64,000 nucleotides of DNA from Arcobacter caeni (GTDB lineage Bacteria; Campylobacterota; Campylobacteria; Campylobacterales; Arcobacteraceae). The notes under the pieces are model-generated. The model did no database searches. It saw nothing but the letters and a program-made list of their open reading frames with translations, and was not told where the DNA came from. The position numbers and the translations under genes were made by a program. Where the stretch lies: positions 1-64,000 of the forward strand of contig NZ_MUXE01000011.1 of the NCBI RefSeq assembly GCF_003063245.1, written 5' to 3'. The number at the start of each line of letters is the position of its first letter. The stretch's first letter is position 1. Below are positions 12,079-20,515 of the stretch, in pieces.

Positions 12079-13209
12079 ATGACTTCTGCAATAGATTTAT
12101 CTAAATTAACAGCAAATGATGATTTAACACCAGTTCTTGGTGGATATTGGCCTGGTATTCAAATATACTACCCACCAATCAAATTTAATCCACTTGATGG
12201 AACATATGAAAGTATGGAACAAGCAAAACTTAGACTACAAAAACATGCTTATAAAACAAAAGCACATACAGTGTTATTTGACTTAGAAGATGGTTGTAGA
12301 CAAAAAGCTATGTCAAGAGAGTTATTAATTCAAGAATTACCAAAATTTCCTGAAAGAACTTTTCAAATAGCAGTAAGACTTAATCCTTTTAGAACTGATG
12401 AATATGAAGAAGATTTAAAAATGTTAAAACAAATTCATCAATATATTGATGTTATTGTTCTTGCAAAAGCTGGAGAAGTTTATGGATCTGCAGAAATTAG
12501 AGATTTATCTTCTTGGTTAATTTCAATCGGAAGTAAGTTAACAATTCAACCAATTATTGAACATCCAAAATCACTGCAAATTGCGGATAGATTAATGGAA
12601 CATTCAACTGTTAAACATGTTGTTTTTGGAATTCACGATTTTTCTAAAGCAATGGCTTATAAAATCACTCCTCAAGGATGGATTAATGAGTTAGAAACTT
12701 TCTTTAATATGCTTACAATGGAAGCTAGAATTAAAGGTAAAGGTGTTATTGGTGGAGTTGAAGTTATGTTAACACCACATTCATTACCTGATTCTTGTGT
12801 GGAGAAAAAAGATATTAGAAGATGGTTAGATTTACATGGTGATGATGCTAGTAGACATGTTTATGCTCATGCAATTAGAGAAAATGCAATGGGATTAACA
12901 GGAAAACAAATCATTACTCCAAACCATATTAATATTTGTAAAGTTGCGTTTACGCCATCTCCAAATGAAATTGCAAAAGATGTTGCTATTTTAAAAGAAG
13001 CTATCAAAACTGATGCATTATTATCTGGTGCAATTAGATATGAGGGTGAAATGTTAGATCCACCAATGTTTGGTAAATCTTTACAAAATATTTTAAGAGC
13101 TTACGCATTAAGATCTTTAGCAAAAGAAGATGAAATATTCGCATTATCTGTATTAAACAGAATGCCAATTCACACATTTAAAGAAAACTGGCCATACGGT
13201 CAAATTTAG
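12079..13209 (+). CDS. HpcH/HpaI aldolase / CitE-like CoA-ester lyase
   Basis: A 376-residue member of the CitE/malyl-CoA lyase superfamily. FDLEDG (near 75-80), a metal-binding Glu161 (IIEHP) and Asp187 (GIHDFSKAM) are intact, as is the C-terminal GKQIITPNHI segment matching the G-K-x-x-I-H/T-P signature. Such enzymes cleave or form (S)-citramalyl-CoA, malyl-CoA or methylmalyl-CoA. First gene of the operon and 16 bp before the ligase-CitE fusion. Because a second, more Mcl-like lyase is encoded downstream, citramalyl-CoA lyase (acetyl-CoA + pyruvate) is my guess, unproven. SD AAAGGT before ATG. Confidence 0.8.
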   Translation: MTSAIDLSKLTANDDLTPVLGGYWPGIQIYYPPIKFNPLDGTYESMEQAKLRLQKHAYKTKAHTVLFDLEDGCRQKAMSRELLIQELPKFPERTFQIAVRLNPFRTDEYEEDLKMLKQIHQYIDVIVLAKAGEVYGSAEIRDLSSWLISIGSKLTIQPIIEHPKSLQIADRLMEHSTVKHVVFGIHDFSKAMAYKITPQGWINELETFFNMLTMEARIKGKGVIGGVEVMLTPHSLPDSCVEKKDIRRWLDLHGDDASRHVYAHAIRENAMGLTGKQIITPNHINICKVAFTPSPNEIAKDVAILKEAIKTDALLSGAIRYEGEMLDPPMFGKSLQNILRAYALRSLAKEDEIFALSVLNRMPIHTFKENWPYGQI

Positions 13210-13225
13210 TAAGGAGATTATAATT

Positions 13226-15745
13226 ATGAGTTCAAATATTAAAATAGAAATACCTGAATTTTTAAACATCGGGTTTGCTTGTACATCTGCTCATGTGGGA
13301 ACACCTAAAGAGAATAGTGTTGCCATGATTATCGAAGATGATAAATTAGGTACAGATGAAATAACTTATAAAGATTTAGCAACTAAATCTGATCAAGTTT
13401 GTAATTTCTTTACTGGAATTGGATTAGAGCCAAGAGATAGAGTTTTAGTTTGTTTAAAAAACTCTCTTGCTTACCCTATTTCGTTTTTTGGAACTATGAA
13501 AGCTGGAATCATTGCCGTTCCAACTTCTACACTTTTAAGTGGTAGCGAAGTTAAATATCTTGCAGAAGATTCACAAGCAAGAGCTATTGTATTATCAGCA
13601 TCTATGTATGAAAATTTACTTCCATACTTAGAAAATCTTGATAACTTAAAAACAATTGTTATTGCTGGAATTGACAGCGTTGAAAATATCAAAAAGCCAA
13701 AAGATATTAATGTTTATTCATTAAATGAAATTTTTGCATCTACTGACAAAACTCCAAATCATTATAATTCTAAATCAGGTGAACCTGCATATTTAGTTTA
13801 TACATCAGGAACAACTGGTTATCCAAAAGGTGTTTTACACTCTCATAGATCACTAGTTGGAAGAACACCTGCAACTAAATTTTGGTTTGATTTTAAAGAA
13901 AATGACAGAATCATGCATTCTGGTAAATTTAACTGGACTTATGTTTTAGGATCTGCATTAATGGATCCATTATTTAATGGTCATACTGTTATTGCTTATG
14001 AGGGTTCAAATGATGCCTCAACTTGGATTAATTTAATTAAAAAGCACCAATGTACTATATTTATTGGAGTTCCAACAATTTATAGACAAATTATTCAAAA
14101 AACAGATTTTACTTTAGCTGATTGCCCAAGCTTAAGATATTGTATGAGTGCTGGGGAGCATTTATCTGATGAAATGCTTGGACTTTGGAGAGAAAAATTC
14201 AAACAAGATATTTATGAAGCAATTGGAATGAGTGAATGTTCTTATTATATTTCTCACTCAAAGAATAATCCAATTAGACCAGGAAGTGCGGGATTCGTAC
14301 AACCAGGACATACTGTAAAACTTTTAGATCCAGATACTTTGGAAGAAGTAGTTGATGGTGAAGAAGGAATGATTTGTATTGGTGAAGATGATCCAGGATT
14401 ATTCTTAGAGTATTGGCAATTAGAAGAAGAAACTGCAAAATCAAGACATGATGGATATTTTTTCACAGGTGATTATGCTAAAAAAGATGAAGATGGATAT
14501 ATCTGGTTCATTGGTAGAAAAGATGATATTATCAATACTTTTGGATTTAGAGTATCTCCACATGAAATCGAAAGAGTTGTAAAAACTCATGATGCAGTTG
14601 CAGATTGTGTTGCTTTTGGTTTAGATATTGGTAAAGATAAAACAATAGTAGCAATTGCAGTTATTGGACATGAAGAATTATCAAAAGAAAAACAAGCAGA
14701 AATTTTAGCTTTTGCTCAAGCTAACTTAGCAAAATATAAAGCTCCAAAAGAGATTTTTGCAATGCTTGATTATCCAAGAACTAAAAATGGAAAAGTTTTA
14801 AGAAAACAACTTGTTAAACAATTACATGAGCAATATCATGCAATTGAAACAGGAACAAAAGTAGTTGAATATAAAGCAAGAAGATCAATGTTATTTGTAC
14901 CTGCATATAATAAACATAATGTTGAAAAAGCTCGAACAGTACTTGCAGATGCTGTAATTTTTGACCTTGAAGCAATTTTACAAGAACAAAGAGAAGCTGG
15001 AAGAGCTGTAATTAGAGAAGTTTATAAAGAGAGTGGTTCTAAATTTGGTGAATCAGAAAGAGTTCTTAGAATCAATAACTTAGGTTCTGAAGATTTAAGA
15101 AAAGATTTAGAACTTGCAAAAGAGATTGAAATTGATGGTTTATTATTTTCTAAAATTCAATCAAAAGAAGATGTTTTAGAAGCAGTTAAATTAACAGAAG
15201 AAGTAAATCCTAATATATCTTTAATGATTATGATTGAAACTCCTTTATCTGTTTTAAATATTCATGAAATTTGTGCAGCATCTCCTAAAGTTGAAGTTGT
15301 GGTTGTTGGTTCTAATAAACTTGCAAATAGACTTCATATTGATGTTAAAAAAGGTTCAAAAGCGATGTTTAATTACTTATCGCAAATTGCATTAGCATCA
15401 AAAGCTTATGGAAAAACTGTAATTGATGGACCACATTTTGATGTTAATGATGAGTTCGCTTGTGAAGATTCAACAAAAGATGCCTTTAATCTAGGATTTG
15501 ATGGGAAATCACTGATTCATCCTGTTCAAATTGAATATATTAATGATATTTTTACTCCTAAACAATCAGAAGTTGAAGATTATGAGAATATGATTGCAAA
15601 ATATGAAGAAGCTGTAAAAGAAGGTAAAGAAGTTATTTTACATAATGATAAATTAGTAGATTCTTCAAGAATTAAATGGGCTAAAAAAATGATCACTTTA
15701 TATGAAACATATAAAGCTTTAGGTCAAAACCTATTTAATAAATAA
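13226..15745 (+). CDS. Fused acyl-CoA ligase and CitE-like protein
   Basis: An 839-residue two-domain protein. Residues 1 to about 540 are an ANL-superfamily acid-CoA ligase: ATP loop YTSGTTGYPKG (192-202), GMSECSYY, the hinge region TGDYAKKDEDGY and the catalytic-Lys motif PRTKNGK (517-523). From about 552 to 839 it is a CitE-like TIM barrel (RRSMLFVPAYNKHN, then IETP with Glu671, and GKSLIHPVQI). In that domain DLED has become DLEA (580-583), and the second metal ligand Asp of the lyases is Lys698 (GSNKLANRL), so lyase activity is doubtful. The ligase would activate a dicarboxylate such as mesaconate or citramalate. SD AAGGAG; no internal stop or frameshift seen. Confidence 0.85.
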   Translation: MSSNIKIEIPEFLNIGFACTSAHVGTPKENSVAMIIEDDKLGTDEITYKDLATKSDQVCNFFTGIGLEPRDRVLVCLKNSLAYPISFFGTMKAGIIAVPTSTLLSGSEVKYLAEDSQARAIVLSASMYENLLPYLENLDNLKTIVIAGIDSVENIKKPKDINVYSLNEIFASTDKTPNHYNSKSGEPAYLVYTSGTTGYPKGVLHSHRSLVGRTPATKFWFDFKENDRIMHSGKFNWTYVLGSALMDPLFNGHTVIAYEGSNDASTWINLIKKHQCTIFIGVPTIYRQIIQKTDFTLADCPSLRYCMSAGEHLSDEMLGLWREKFKQDIYEAIGMSECSYYISHSKNNPIRPGSAGFVQPGHTVKLLDPDTLEEVVDGEEGMICIGEDDPGLFLEYWQLEEETAKSRHDGYFFTGDYAKKDEDGYIWFIGRKDDIINTFGFRVSPHEIERVVKTHDAVADCVAFGLDIGKDKTIVAIAVIGHEELSKEKQAEILAFAQANLAKYKAPKEIFAMLDYPRTKNGKVLRKQLVKQLHEQYHAIETGTKVVEYKARRSMLFVPAYNKHNVEKARTVLADAVIFDLEAILQEQREAGRAVIREVYKESGSKFGESERVLRINNLGSEDLRKDLELAKEIEIDGLLFSKIQSKEDVLEAVKLTEEVNPNISLMIMIETPLSVLNIHEICAASPKVEVVVVGSNKLANRLHIDVKKGSKAMFNYLSQIALASKAYGKTVIDGPHFDVNDEFACEDSTKDAFNLGFDGKSLIHPVQIEYINDIFTPKQSEVEDYENMIAKYEEAVKEGKEVILHNDKLVDSSRIKWAKKMITLYETYKALGQNLFNK

Positions 15746-15755
15746 GGGAGTAAAT

Positions 15756-16829
15756 TTGTCAAAAATAAGCAATAAAATTAATTTTGGTAACTTTTTTGAA
15801 GATTTTTCAATCGGACAAAAAATAGTTCATCCACTTCCTAGAACAATAAGTGATGGTGATGTATCTTTATACATCGCTTTTACTGGTTCAAGATTTGCTC
15901 TGCACTCTTCTGATACAGTTGCAATTGAAATGGGATATTCTAAAAAACCAATTGATGATATGTTAATGTTTCACCTAACATTTGGAAAATCTGTTCAAGA
16001 TGTATCTTTAAATGCAATTGCAAACTTAGGTTATGCAGAGATGTCTTTTCCTAATCCAGTTTACGTTGGTGACACAGTTTCTATGACATCAACTGTAATT
16101 GGATTAAAAGAGAATTCAAATGGTAAAAGTGGAGTTGTTTATGTTCACTCTATTGGTGTAAATCAAAATTGTGAAGAAGTTTTAAATTTCAAAAGATGGG
16201 TTATGGTTCATAAAAAAGATAAAGAGACTTTATCAAATATTAACGAAGTTCCAACTTTTGCAAAAACAACACCAATTGCAGATGTAATAAATATTCCAAC
16301 AATCAAAACTATAGATACAGATGCAAGTGGTGGAAAATATTTCTTTGAAGATTATGAAGCTGGTGAGAGATTAAATCACCCTGAGGGAATTACTATTGAT
16401 AATAGTGATCATACATTAGCAACAAAGTTATATCAAAACAATGCAAAAGTACATTTTAATGACCATATGATGAAAAGTTCACCGATGGGTCAAAGACTTA
16501 TGTATGGTGGAATCATTATTTCAATGGCAAGAGCTCTTTCTTTTAATGGTTTACAAAATGCACAATGGGTTTATGCTATTAATAGTGGAGCTCATGCAAA
16601 CCCTACATATGCAGGTGATACTATTTATGCATATACAGAAGTTATTGAAACAATAGATGTAAATAGAGAAGATATTGGATTATTAAGACTTAGAACCGTG
16701 GCTATTAAAAACCAAGTTTCTAAAGAGATTGAAAATCCAAAAAGTGAAGATGGTAAATATTTACCAAATGTTGTTCTTGATTTGGATTATACAGTTGTAA
16801 TTCCAAAGAAAAAAACTGAAAAAAAATAA
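15756..16829 (+). CDS. mch: Mesaconyl-CoA hydratase (beta-methylmalyl-CoA dehydratase)
   Basis: A 357-residue double hot-dog MaoC-type hydratase. The two halves (about 10-170 and 190-350) each begin with an FFEDF/FFEDY-x-x-G motif. TISDGDVSLYIAFTGSRFAL, HLTFGKSVQDVSLNAIANLG and GGIIISMARALSFNGL match what I recall of Mch from Rhodobacter and Chloroflexus, which interconverts beta-methylmalyl-CoA and mesaconyl-C1-CoA. The start is TTG at 15756 with GGGAG at good spacing, 10 bp after the ligase fusion; the next ATG is far inside the conserved region. It is the best diagnostic gene for the pathway of this operon. Confidence 0.85.
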   Translation: MSKISNKINFGNFFEDFSIGQKIVHPLPRTISDGDVSLYIAFTGSRFALHSSDTVAIEMGYSKKPIDDMLMFHLTFGKSVQDVSLNAIANLGYAEMSFPNPVYVGDTVSMTSTVIGLKENSNGKSGVVYVHSIGVNQNCEEVLNFKRWVMVHKKDKETLSNINEVPTFAKTTPIADVINIPTIKTIDTDASGGKYFFEDYEAGERLNHPEGITIDNSDHTLATKLYQNNAKVHFNDHMMKSSPMGQRLMYGGIIISMARALSFNGLQNAQWVYAINSGAHANPTYAGDTIYAYTEVIETIDVNREDIGLLRLRTVAIKNQVSKEIENPKSEDGKYLPNVVLDLDYTVVIPKKKTEKK

Positions 16830-16859: not shown

Positions 16860-17843
16860 ATGACACACCCTAATGAAGCACTATTTGGTTCTGGAGACAA
16901 CTTACCAATCATTCCATCATGCGAACACTTTGCAGGTAGCGAAAAGCTAATCTTAAAAGGTTTTGAAATGCAAAAAAAACTAGGACCTGTTTTTGATATT
17001 ACTTGTGATTGTGAAGATGGAGCTGAAACTGGTAAAGAAGTTGCACATGCGCAAATGATTGTAAGAGTTGTAAATTCAGATGCAAACCCTTATGCAATGG
17101 CAGGGACAAGAATTCACGATTTTGATCATCCAGATTGGAGACAAGATATTGATATTTTAGTACCAGGTGCTGGAGAAAAATTAGCATATATTACTATTCC
17201 AAAATCAACTTCTTACGAAGATGCAAAAACTCAAGTTGAATATATCCAAGAAACTGCAAAAAAAGCTGGTATTAAAAGAGAAATCCCAATCCATGTTTTA
17301 ATTGAAACTCATGGTGCTTTAAGAGATGTTGAAAAAACTGCAACTTTACCTTGGGTACAAGTTTTAGATTTTGGTTTAATGGACTTTGTTTCAGGTTACC
17401 AAGGTGCAATTCCTGCTTCTAATATGAGAAGTCCAGGTCAATTTGAACATAGATTAATTGCTGCTGCTAAAGCTAAAGTTGTTCAAGCGGCACTTTCTAA
17501 TCATATTATTCCTTGTCATAATGTTACACTTGATTTAAAAAACCCGTACCAAACTTACAAAGATGCAGAAAAAGCAAGAAATGAGTTCGGATTTATGAGA
17601 ATGTGGTCAATTTACCCAACTCAAGTTCAAGCTATTGTTGATGCAATGAAACCAGATTTTACTGAATTAGAAGCTGCACAAAATATTTTATTAGCAGCTC
17701 AAGATGCTGAGTGGGGACCAATTCAATATGACGGTGAATTACACGATAGAGCAACTTACAGATATTTTTGGGAATTAGTTCAAAGAGCAAACTTCTCTGG
17801 AACAAAATTACAAGATGAAGTAGTAAAAAGATTCTTCTCTTAA
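16860..17843 (+). CDS. L-malyl-CoA / beta-methylmalyl-CoA lyase-like protein
   Basis: A 327-residue HpcH/HpaI-family CoA-ester lyase. DCEDGAETGKE near the N-terminus, Glu149 (VLIETHGALRDV) and Asp175 (GLMDFVSG) supply the usual metal-binding residues; RMWSIYPTQVQ is the equivalent of the C-terminal G-K-x-x-I-H-P region. Beside mesaconyl-CoA hydratase the likely reaction is reversible condensation of glyoxylate with propionyl-CoA (or acetyl-CoA). It is last in the operon, 30 bp after mch, and a strong hairpin follows. It is only distantly similar to the two other CitE-type domains here, so the three are not a recent tandem duplication. Substrate is inferred. Confidence 0.78.
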   Translation: MTHPNEALFGSGDNLPIIPSCEHFAGSEKLILKGFEMQKKLGPVFDITCDCEDGAETGKEVAHAQMIVRVVNSDANPYAMAGTRIHDFDHPDWRQDIDILVPGAGEKLAYITIPKSTSYEDAKTQVEYIQETAKKAGIKREIPIHVLIETHGALRDVEKTATLPWVQVLDFGLMDFVSGYQGAIPASNMRSPGQFEHRLIAAAKAKVVQAALSNHIIPCHNVTLDLKNPYQTYKDAEKARNEFGFMRMWSIYPTQVQAIVDAMKPDFTELEAAQNILLAAQDAEWGPIQYDGELHDRATYRYFWELVQRANFSGTKLQDEVVKRFFS

Positions 17844-18015: not shown

Positions 18016-19509
18016 ATGAAAGTAATTAAACAACAAGATATTATAGATAGTATTGCTGATGCCTGTCAGTATATTTCATATTTTCACCCAGAAGATTTCG
18101 TAAAAGGAATGGTTGAAGCATATGAAGTAGAAAAAGGTGAAGCTGCTAAAAATGCTATTGGACAAATTCTAATAAACTCTAAAATGTGTGCAATGGGGCA
18201 TAGACCTTTATGTCAAGATACAGGAAGTGTTAATATTTTTATCAAAGTTGGTTTAAATGCTAAACTTGAATTAACAAAAGAGTTAGCTGATGTATTAAAC
18301 GAAGGTGTTGCAAAAGGTTATACTAATCCTGATAATACTTTAAGATACTCTGTAGTTTCAGATCCTGCTGGAAAAAGAACAAATACAAAAGATAACACTC
18401 CTGCTGTTATTCATGTTACTGTTGATAATTCTGATGAATTAGATATTACAGTTGCTGCAAAAGGTGGTGGAAGTGAAAATAAATCTAAATTTGCAGTATT
18501 AAATCCAAGTGATTCAGTTTATGACTGGGTTATGGCAAATGTTAGAGAAATGGGTGCAGGTTGGTGTCCTCCTGGAATTTTAGGAATTGGTATTGGTGGA
18601 AATCCAGAAAAAGCAATGTTATTAGCAAAAGAGTCTTTAATGGGTCATGTTGATATTCATGAGCTAAAAGCTAGAGGTCCTCAAAACGCATTAGAAGAAT
18701 TAAGACTAAGACTTTATGAAGATATTAACAAAGTTGGTATTGGAGCTCAAGGACTTGGTGGATTAACAACTGTTTTAGATGTTAAAATCTTAGATTACCC
18801 ATGTCATGCGGCATCACTTCCTGTTGCTATGATTCCAAATTGCGCTGCAACTAGACATATTCACTTTAAATTAAAAGGTGGAAATGGTCCAGCTGTATTT
18901 GAAAGACCAGATTTAGATTTATGGCCAGATATTGAACTTCCAATGGATACTATTAAAAGAGTAAATATTGCAGATTTAACAAAAGAGAATTTATCTCAAT
19001 TTAAATCAGGTGATACTTTATTACTTTCTGGAAAAATTTTAACAGCAAGAGATGCAGCTCACAAAAAAATCGTTGAGTACAAAAATGCTGGGAAAGCACT
19101 TCCAAATGGTGTTGAATTAAAAGATAGATTTATTTATTACGTAGGACCTGTTGATCCTGTAAGGGATGAAGCTGTTGGACCTGCTGGTCCTACTACATCT
19201 ACAAGAATGGATAAATTTACAAAAGACATGATGGAAATTGGAATCATGGGAATGATTGGAAAAGCTGAAAGAAAACAACCTACTATTGATTTAATTAAAG
19301 AGTATAAATCTATTTATTTAATTGCAACTGGTGGAGCTGCTTATTTAATTTCTCAATCAATCAAATCTGCAAAAGTTTTAGCTTTTGAAGAACTTGGTAT
19401 GGAAGCAATTTATGAATTTGATGTAAAAGATATGCCTGTTACTGTAGCTGTTGATACGCAAGGTGTTTCAATTCATACAACTGGTCCTGCTAAATGGAGA
19501 ACAATTTAA
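18016..19509 (+). CDS. Class I fumarate hydratase (possible mesaconase)
   Basis: A 497-residue iron-sulfur fumarase with the alpha and beta parts fused. Three Cys segments fit the 4Fe-4S ligands: LCQDTG, GWCPPGI and PNCAATRH. The beta part carries GPAGPTTSTRMDKFT and a terminal IHTTGPAKWRTI. It interconverts fumarate and malate; some class I fumarases also hydrate mesaconate to (S)-citramalate. Its position after the mesaconyl-CoA genes makes the second activity plausible, but it may simply be the TCA-cycle enzyme. Own promoter, SD AAAAGGA, and hairpin terminator. Confidence 0.92.
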   Translation: MKVIKQQDIIDSIADACQYISYFHPEDFVKGMVEAYEVEKGEAAKNAIGQILINSKMCAMGHRPLCQDTGSVNIFIKVGLNAKLELTKELADVLNEGVAKGYTNPDNTLRYSVVSDPAGKRTNTKDNTPAVIHVTVDNSDELDITVAAKGGGSENKSKFAVLNPSDSVYDWVMANVREMGAGWCPPGILGIGIGGNPEKAMLLAKESLMGHVDIHELKARGPQNALEELRLRLYEDINKVGIGAQGLGGLTTVLDVKILDYPCHAASLPVAMIPNCAATRHIHFKLKGGNGPAVFERPDLDLWPDIELPMDTIKRVNIADLTKENLSQFKSGDTLLLSGKILTARDAAHKKIVEYKNAGKALPNGVELKDRFIYYVGPVDPVRDEAVGPAGPTTSTRMDKFTKDMMEIGIMGMIGKAERKQPTIDLIKEYKSIYLIATGGAAYLISQSIKSAKVLAFEELGMEAIYEFDVKDMPVTVAVDTQGVSIHTTGPAKWRTI

Positions 19510-19681: not shown

Positions 19682-20515
19682 ATGTTATTAGATGATTTAA
19701 AAGATTATTTGGGTTTTGCTGTTGCTGGAAATTTTGCTAATCACTTAGGTGAAGCTGGTGAAGCTGATGAATTTGCAGTAATTAAAACCGAAGAAAAAGA
19801 TGCCCCAAAAGGAATGTTTCCTTTTTATATAAAAGACCATAATAGTTTTTTAGGAACTTATCCAATATGTGATGAAATCATTTTAACACATGGAAGAGAA
19901 AATGAAAATCTCCAAGTTGAAGCAGAAGTTGCTTTGATTTGTGATTTTGAATATAAAGATGGAAAAGTAGTTGATATTATTCCCAAATATTTTTCAGCCT
20001 TTAATGACTGTTCTATAAGAGTAAATAATGGTGAAAAATTAAGTACTAAAAAAAACTGGGGAACAAATACAAAAGGTATTTCTCAAGATATTATCGAAAT
20101 TGATAACTTTACTGAAAAAGGAATTTTAAGTAAATATCATATCTCTTCATTTATCAAAAGAGATGGAATTGTTTATGATTATGGAACAACAAGTGCTGTA
20201 AAATCATACAGTTATTTCTTTCATCAATTAAAAGATTGGATGATTCATAAATTAAATACTCAAGAAGATTGTGGACCATTAGAAGAGTTAACTCAATTTA
20301 TGTTTGATGCAAAAAATGCAAAAGGTATTTTAATAGCAGCTGGTGCCACAGCTTATACAGAATTTGGAAAACATAACTTTCTGAAAAAAGGTGATGAGAT
20401 TTTTGTATATGTTTATAATGCCCATGCACACAGTTTCTTAGATATTATGAATGATATGTGTGGAATGGATATTTATTTAGGACAATGTTCAAAACTTCAT
20501 CAATATGTTCAATAA
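19682..20515 (+). CDS. DUF5718 family protein (FAH-like fold suspected)
   Basis: A 277-residue cytoplasmic protein that I recognise as the DUF5718 type found in Arcobacter relatives. LGFAVAGNFANHLGEAGEADEF at the start and NLQVEAEVALICDF in the middle look like the fumarylacetoacetate-hydrolase fold, where acidic residues bind a metal; this is a guess from pattern. If so, it could act on a beta-keto or oxo-acid, perhaps linked to the CoA-ester genes just upstream. It has its own promoter and a hairpin at its end. Function is not known. Confidence 0.6.
   Translation: MLLDDLKDYLGFAVAGNFANHLGEAGEADEFAVIKTEEKDAPKGMFPFYIKDHNSFLGTYPICDEIILTHGRENENLQVEAEVALICDFEYKDGKVVDIIPKYFSAFNDCSIRVNNGEKLSTKKNWGTNTKGISQDIIEIDNFTEKGILSKYHISSFIKRDGIVYDYGTTSAVKSYSYFFHQLKDWMIHKLNTQEDCGPLEELTQFMFDAKNAKGILIAAGATAYTEFGKHNFLKKGDEIFVYVYNAHAHSFLDIMNDMCGMDIYLGQCSKLHQYVQ

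Follow-up and report, generated by a model that had tools for sequence, protein, structure and literature searches.

Loss of metal-site residues in a CitE-like domain fused to an acyl-CoA ligase in Arcobacter caeni and its relatives

Introduction

CitE-like enzymes have so far been described as always keeping their metal ligands. The locus studied here, located in a 64,000-nucleotide stretch of DNA from Arcobacter caeni (the window; genome size 2.4 Mb), raises the question of what such a domain does when one of these ligands is gone. It encodes an acyl-CoA ligase fused to a CitE-like domain with a lysine on the site of a metal-binding aspartate, in the same operon as 2 CitE-like lyases with intact sites. 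We find it very improbable that the fused domain works as an ordinary Mg-dependent lyase. That it instead serves as a non-catalytic partner or scaffold domain is a reading for which we judge the chances to be about even, the loss of lyase activity being deduced from the residues present.

Domain architecture of the fused protein

The protein of 839 amino acids is encoded on the forward strand by a single open reading frame (13226-15745), with abundant termination codons on the opposite strand. Its N-terminal part is an intact acyl-CoA ligase, and the remainder is a whole CitE-like TIM barrel with its lid. The Pfam domains AMP-binding (residues 42 to 397), AMP-binding_C (residues 447 to 523), and HpcH_HpaI (residues 553 to 766) were all identified above their cut-offs. 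In the ligase domain (residues 1 to 535, 13226-14830, PF00501 and PF13193), the motifs YTSGTTGYPKG, GMSE, FTGD, GRKDD, and TKNGK were intact, and the residues checked (A3, A5, A7, A8, and A10) were invariant among 97 distinct relatives, with the A10 lysine present in 91 and gapped in 6. As judged from these residues, the N-terminal part of the protein belongs to the acyl-CoA ligases of the ANL superfamily, with an acid substrate that can be proposed from the operon alone. It is joined by a fast-evolving linker (residues 536 to 550, 14831-14875) to the putative pseudo-lyase domain (residues 551 to 839, 14876-15742, PF03328, E-value 2.9e-33), which comprises the barrel and a complete C-terminal lid.

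A structural model of the CitE-like domain alone, generated with AlphaFold2 from a 29-row alignment, had a mean pLDDT of 89 and matched human CLYBL (5vxs, Z-score 33.9) and malyl-CoA lyase (5ugr, Z-score 33.8), with the lid included. The domain is thereby predicted to have the CitE-like (HpcH/HpaI) fold, a TIM barrel with a C-terminal lid. The model contains a strand at residues 689 to 694 and a helix from residue 696, with residue 698 at the helix start. The full-length model had a pLDDT of 74.7 and a pTM of 0.55, and the domain arrangement is unreadable at such confidence.

Residues of the metal site

The Mg2+ ligands Glu141 and Asp168 of malyl-CoA lyase and the water-holding Glu44 and Asp45 have been described as absolutely conserved across the superfamily, as have Arg76 and the lid residue Asp299, the one exception being a lid Glu in the malyl-CoA thioesterase group (Zarzycki and Kerfeld, PMC3832036). 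All family members characterised so far, among them the thioesterase, require a divalent metal (PMC3832036).

In the window protein, Glu671 (15236-15238) corresponds to the metal ligand Glu141/Glu157, Arg615 (15068-15070) to the catalytic Arg76/Arg92 of malyl-CoA lyases, and Asp812 (15659-15661) to the lid residue Asp299/Asp318. The site of the other metal ligand, Asp168/Asp184, is taken by Lys698 (15317-15319), and the DLED motif has degenerated to D580-L581-E582-A583 (14963-14974) by the deletion of one residue; the position of the gap in DL-EA is ambiguous, and the missing acid is either the E or the D of DLED. The metal Glu, the catalytic Arg, and the lid Asp of a Mg-dependent lyase are thus present, and the metal Asp and the Glu-Asp pair of DLED are absent. 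Nor does the fused form have the residues of a malyl-CoA thioesterase, in which a lid Glu is combined with the metal ligands, since its lid residue is Asp812 and the metal Asp is missing.

The first-pass annotation of the window had read Glu671 as kept, Lys698 in place of Asp, and DLEA in place of DLED, all of which was found as described, and it had singled out the 680-710 region for alignment. Lys698 fell on the metal Asp in every alignment tried, and in none was the Asp placed elsewhere. It aligned without gaps, in the GSNKL stretch, to the metal Asp of the PDB chains 5vxc (CLYBL), 4l9y, and 3qll in phmmer comparisons. The same column of the multiple alignment, likewise free of gaps here, contained Asp in all 19 canonical lyases and in 24 of 29 unfused copies of the domain (see below), where related proteins have GTTDLANSL versus GSNKLANRL in the window. 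It was also considered whether the metal Asp had moved to a neighbouring position; this was ruled out, as no acid is located within 3 residues of position 698 across the fused set.

Distribution and variation of the fused form

A search for the domain pair in other genomes had also been proposed in the first-pass annotation, and the pair was found to recur in 79 of the 104 genomes of the family, representing 13 of 20 genera. The fused frame contained 840 to 864 codons in all 79 genomes with the exception of one fragmented assembly, which rules out that the fusion is an assembly artefact. The fusion is fixed wherever it is present in the family.

When 69 distinct fused sequences were compared, the residue at position 698 was Lys in 52, Asn in 9, Thr in 3, Ser in 2, Arg in 2, and Ala in 1, and never Asp or Glu. 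With the sequences weighted by kinship (effective number 9.9), the variability of position 698 exceeded that of 93% of the columns and that of position 643 exceeded 95%. Arg615 and Glu671 were close to the median column, with replacements to Lys and Asp, respectively, in the basal fused genera (7 of 69 sequences in both cases). Asp812 (69 of 69), Asn617, and Asp734 did not vary, and the motifs FDGK..HPxQ and DGPH were conserved. Position 698 thus ranks within the most variable 7% of columns in the domain, and Lys698 is a feature of a clade, not a conserved catalytic residue. What the relatives share is the loss of Asp, and a general catalytic function of a Lys at this site is improbable. A family-wide role for Lys698 as a conserved class I (Schiff-base) lysine is ruled out by the Asn, Thr, Ser, Arg, and Ala residues found there.

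Lys643 accompanied Lys698 in 48 of the 52 sequences, which represent the Aliarcobacter-type clade, and the remaining 4 had Leu or Gln at position 643. Strict covariation of the 2 lysines, as seen in 33 of 33 cases in the first 41 sequences, failed with wider sampling because of these 4. Median pairwise dN/dS values were 0.187 for the CitE-like domain, 0.128 for the ligase, and 0.48 for the linker; the CitE-like domain is under purifying selection and evolves slightly faster than the ligase.

Unfused modules and phylogeny

The same 5 genes were adjacent in many gammaproteobacterial genomes (e.g. L062, L064, and L141-L154), where the domain is encoded by a separate gene, usually located between the genes for the ligase and the hydratase. 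In the 29 unfused copies, DLED was replaced by DLQES, DLHES, or DLYES. The metal Asp was present in 24 and replaced by Asn in 5, the metal Glu was present in 27, and the lid residue was either Glu (25 copies) or Gln (4 copies). The full catalytic set was found in none of 70 module copies, fused or unfused, versus 18 of 19 canonical lyases, the nineteenth of which departed from it by a lid Glu alone. The degeneracy is independent of the fusion, with the unfused copies also degenerate but at other positions, and most of them could still bind Mg.

In a maximum-likelihood tree, all module copies grouped together (support 99/95), and the fused copies formed a single clade (100/100) on a long stem, sister to the Alteromonadales-like unfused copies (98/89). 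The 2 lyases of the window were located on very long branches, and their placement is unreliable. From the positions of the fused clade, a Chromatiales-like clade, and the copy in locus L128 in the tree, we infer that the metal Asp was lost at least 3 times.

It was also noted that the unfused copy in L128 (G429) lacks both direct metal ligands, with Glu replaced by Ala and Asp by Asn. In another locus, on a Chromatiales contig (L065, 8965-19002), the ligase gene was directly followed by the hydratase gene with no gene for the CitE-like domain between them; 3 other CitE-like genes were located nearby, one of which encodes a lid Glu in an otherwise full catalytic set. This arrangement may be the state before the module was formed. 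A gene for an acyl-CoA thioesterase (PF02551) adjoined the gene for the 327 amino acid lyase in L148 (1858-2718), with an equivalent in L149.

Operon partners and function of the module

The neighbouring lyase, hydratase, and fumarase genes are located on the forward strand. The gene upstream of the fusion (12079-13209) codes for a CitE-like lyase of 376 amino acids, assigned to the module by synteny. Downstream are the genes for a tandem-MaoC mesaconyl-C1-CoA (beta-methylmalyl-CoA) hydratase (15756-16829, PF19315) and a second CitE-like lyase of 327 amino acids, close to 3qqw (16860-17843), both of which are also module members, and for a class I fumarase (18016-19509), which is part of the operon in some relatives only. 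All 7 catalytic and metal residues were kept in the 376 amino acid lyase among 49 distinct sequences, and in the 327 amino acid lyase among 47, with the exception of one row gapped at 2 sites. The 2 acids previously noted in each lyase (E161 and D187 in the former, E149 and D175 in the latter) are accompanied by the Arg, the DLED or CED acids, and the lid Asp. The module, consisting of the 2 lyases, the ligase, the hydratase, and the degenerate domain, recurred in gammaproteobacterial and Campylobacterota loci.

The hydratase had a full-length homolog in 4e3e, described as a MaoC domain protein dehydratase (E-value 2.7e-112), which we take to be the mesaconyl-C1-CoA hydratase of Chloroflexus, and was also similar to the beta-methylmalyl-CoA dehydratase 8hgn (E-value 4.7e-104). 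Given the identity of the hydratase together with the ligase and the CitE-like lyases, the module probably converts mesaconate or beta-methylmalyl-CoA to glyoxylate and propionyl-CoA, or the other way round. The protein families point to a route from mesaconate through mesaconyl-C1-CoA and beta-methylmalyl-CoA to glyoxylate and propionyl-CoA, in either direction. No malate synthase was identified in the genome by Pfam, and the sole relative of isocitrate lyase is, with 297 codons, of PrpB size. The module in L145 lies next to genes for a malic enzyme, a GntR regulator, and a Kinase-PPPase family protein, which fits with malate or pyruvate feeding into gluconeogenesis.

The fumarase was the only one of class I found in the genome, and its gene is located elsewhere in relatives. 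It is probably the TCA fumarase of the cell and at most a loose member of the module; for the same reasons, the case for a specific mesaconase of the pathway is weak. A DUF5718 protein of 277 amino acids (19682-20515, E-value 9.9e-96), encoded downstream of the module in 8 of the 10 fused loci compared, may belong to the pathway. An IclR-type regulator gene was located divergently beside the gene for the 376 amino acid lyase in 8 fused loci, namely L045, L049, L053, L060, L157 (4198-4914), L158, L159, and L161. The window has no IclR gene at this site, and a BioD-like protein is encoded upstream of the lyase gene.

A role for a lyase-like domain with an eroded site

The suggestion in the first-pass annotation of a binding or regulatory domain, or of a lyase with different chemistry, stands in so far as an ordinary Mg-dependent lyase is disfavoured. 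It has to be revised on 3 points. Lys698 is not conserved, degenerate copies occur with and without the fusion, and the loss extends beyond a single ligand: DLED has also lost an acid, and the basal fused genera have replaced Arg615 and Glu671, with the lid Asp constant throughout. We propose that the domain is a pseudo-lyase, in which the barrel and the lid would still be folded but could no longer hold Mg2+ for aldol chemistry, and that it has been retained for a non-catalytic task in the 5-gene module, most likely assembly. CitE-like lyases assemble as trimers and hexamers, and in malyl-CoA lyases each active site is closed by the lid of a neighbouring subunit, on which the lid Asp is located (PMC3832036). 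The presumably inactive domain may thus join one of the intact lyases in a hetero-oligomer and lend the invariant Asp812 to it in trans. The ligase would thereby be tethered beside the intact lyase and might channel its acyl-CoA product to it by local transfer.

In the fused form, residues acting within the same barrel drift, but the lid Asp, whose place of action would be the site of a neighbour, stays fixed; such a pattern is expected of a partner subunit with an inactive barrel. The 6 different replacements of the metal Asp, affecting all 69 fused sequences in the presence of intact partners, argue for a pseudo-lyase. Against a lid acid supplied in trans throughout the family counts the lid Glu or Gln of the unfused copies, most of which also keep both direct metal ligands. 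A bolder reading, which we consider doubtful, is that the domain is either a metal-free barrel that binds or hydrolyses a dicarboxyl-CoA from the fused ligase, with Lys698 and mostly also Lys643 occupying the place of Mg2+ in the Aliarcobacter-type clade, or an inactive lyase subunit that gives its lid acid in trans to an intact paralogue.

Other explanations were weighed against the pseudo-lyase. A metal-independent hydrolase, or some other new chemistry, in which acyl-CoA from the ligase or the hydratase (e.g. malyl-CoA or mesaconyl-CoA) is hydrolysed with Lys698 or its neighbours in place of the metal, is unlikely. The lid Glu of the Rhodobacter malyl-CoA thioesterase group (PMC3832036) recurs in the 25 unfused copies, the module has no separate thioesterase gene, and the conserved FDGK..HPxQ and DGPH motifs and the pairing of the 2 lysines are in line with such a function; but the characterised thioesterase itself needs a divalent metal, the fused form has a lid Asp, and position 698 is too variable for any one replacement residue to be the catalyst in the whole fused clade. 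A ligand-sensing domain that binds CoA esters or dicarboxylates without turnover and controls the ligase would agree with the retention of the fold and several superfamily motifs beside an eroded metal site, and with the fusion to the ligase in 79 genomes. The separate protein in the Gammaproteobacteria is incompatible with simple tethered allostery there, and we regard this explanation as quite improbable.

That the domain is still a lyase, binding Mg2+ through Glu671, Glu582, and water molecules or through a metal Asp from elsewhere, seems very unlikely despite the Arg615, Glu671, and lid Asp of the window protein and the Asp in most of the unfused sister group. Both metal ligands have been described as absolutely conserved in the superfamily (PMC3832036), position 698 has no acid nearby, and even Glu671 and Arg615 are replaced in the basal fused genera. 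Least credible, and by our estimate highly improbable, is a functionless remnant of a gene fusion in decay. The dN/dS value is higher for the domain than for the ligase and several catalytic positions drift, but the domain is under purifying selection, the frame is full-length in all but the one fragmented genome, many columns are invariant in a fold predicted to be intact, and the separate genes of the Gammaproteobacteria have been retained as well.

Comparison with known systems

The same operon has been described in Arcobacter butzleri, where the cluster ab1917-ab1921 encodes a CitE protein, a ligase-CitE fusion (AB1918, an acyl-CoA synthetase/CitE fusion), an enoyl-CoA hydratase, another CitE protein, and a fumarase, and a pathway from glyoxylate and propionyl-CoA to pyruvate and acetyl-CoA was proposed (Miller et al. 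2007, PMC2147049). In the parts of that paper concerned with the cluster, all 3 CitE proteins are taken as possible lyases, and neither the missing metal site and how widely it is missing nor the unfused gammaproteobacterial modules are mentioned. In the literature collection searched, nothing on the module was identified besides this genome paper. The fusion and the pathway proposal were accordingly known since 2007, and the loss of the metal site and its spread are new. If the domain is a pseudo-lyase, the subfamily, in which parts of the site were lost repeatedly although it is encoded in the same operon as 2 intact paralogues, would be a clear lineage of pseudoenzymes in central carbon metabolism. 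The 3 CitE annotations of the Arcobacter cluster can then not all mean lyase, which alters the published pathway scheme.

Among enzymes with solved structures, the malyl-CoA/beta-methylmalyl-CoA lyases of R. sphaeroides (4L9Y), C. aurantiacus (4L80), and M. extorquens (5UGR) share with the window domain the fold and the lid, the Arg, the equivalent of Glu141, and the lid Asp, but they require Mg2+ or Mn2+, whereas the window domain lacks the metal Asp and one acid of DLED and is fused to a ligase. The 4E3E and 8HGN hydratases resemble the next gene of the operon over its whole length, that is, the partner and not the fused protein. The Rhodobacter (3S)-malyl-CoA thioesterase has the lid Glu in common with unfused module copies, in contrast to the fused copies with their lid Asp and missing metal Asp. 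The closest solved fold is that of human CLYBL (5VXC, 5VXO, and 5VXS), tied with 5UGR, and CLYBL keeps the Asp of the metal pair, unlike the window domain.
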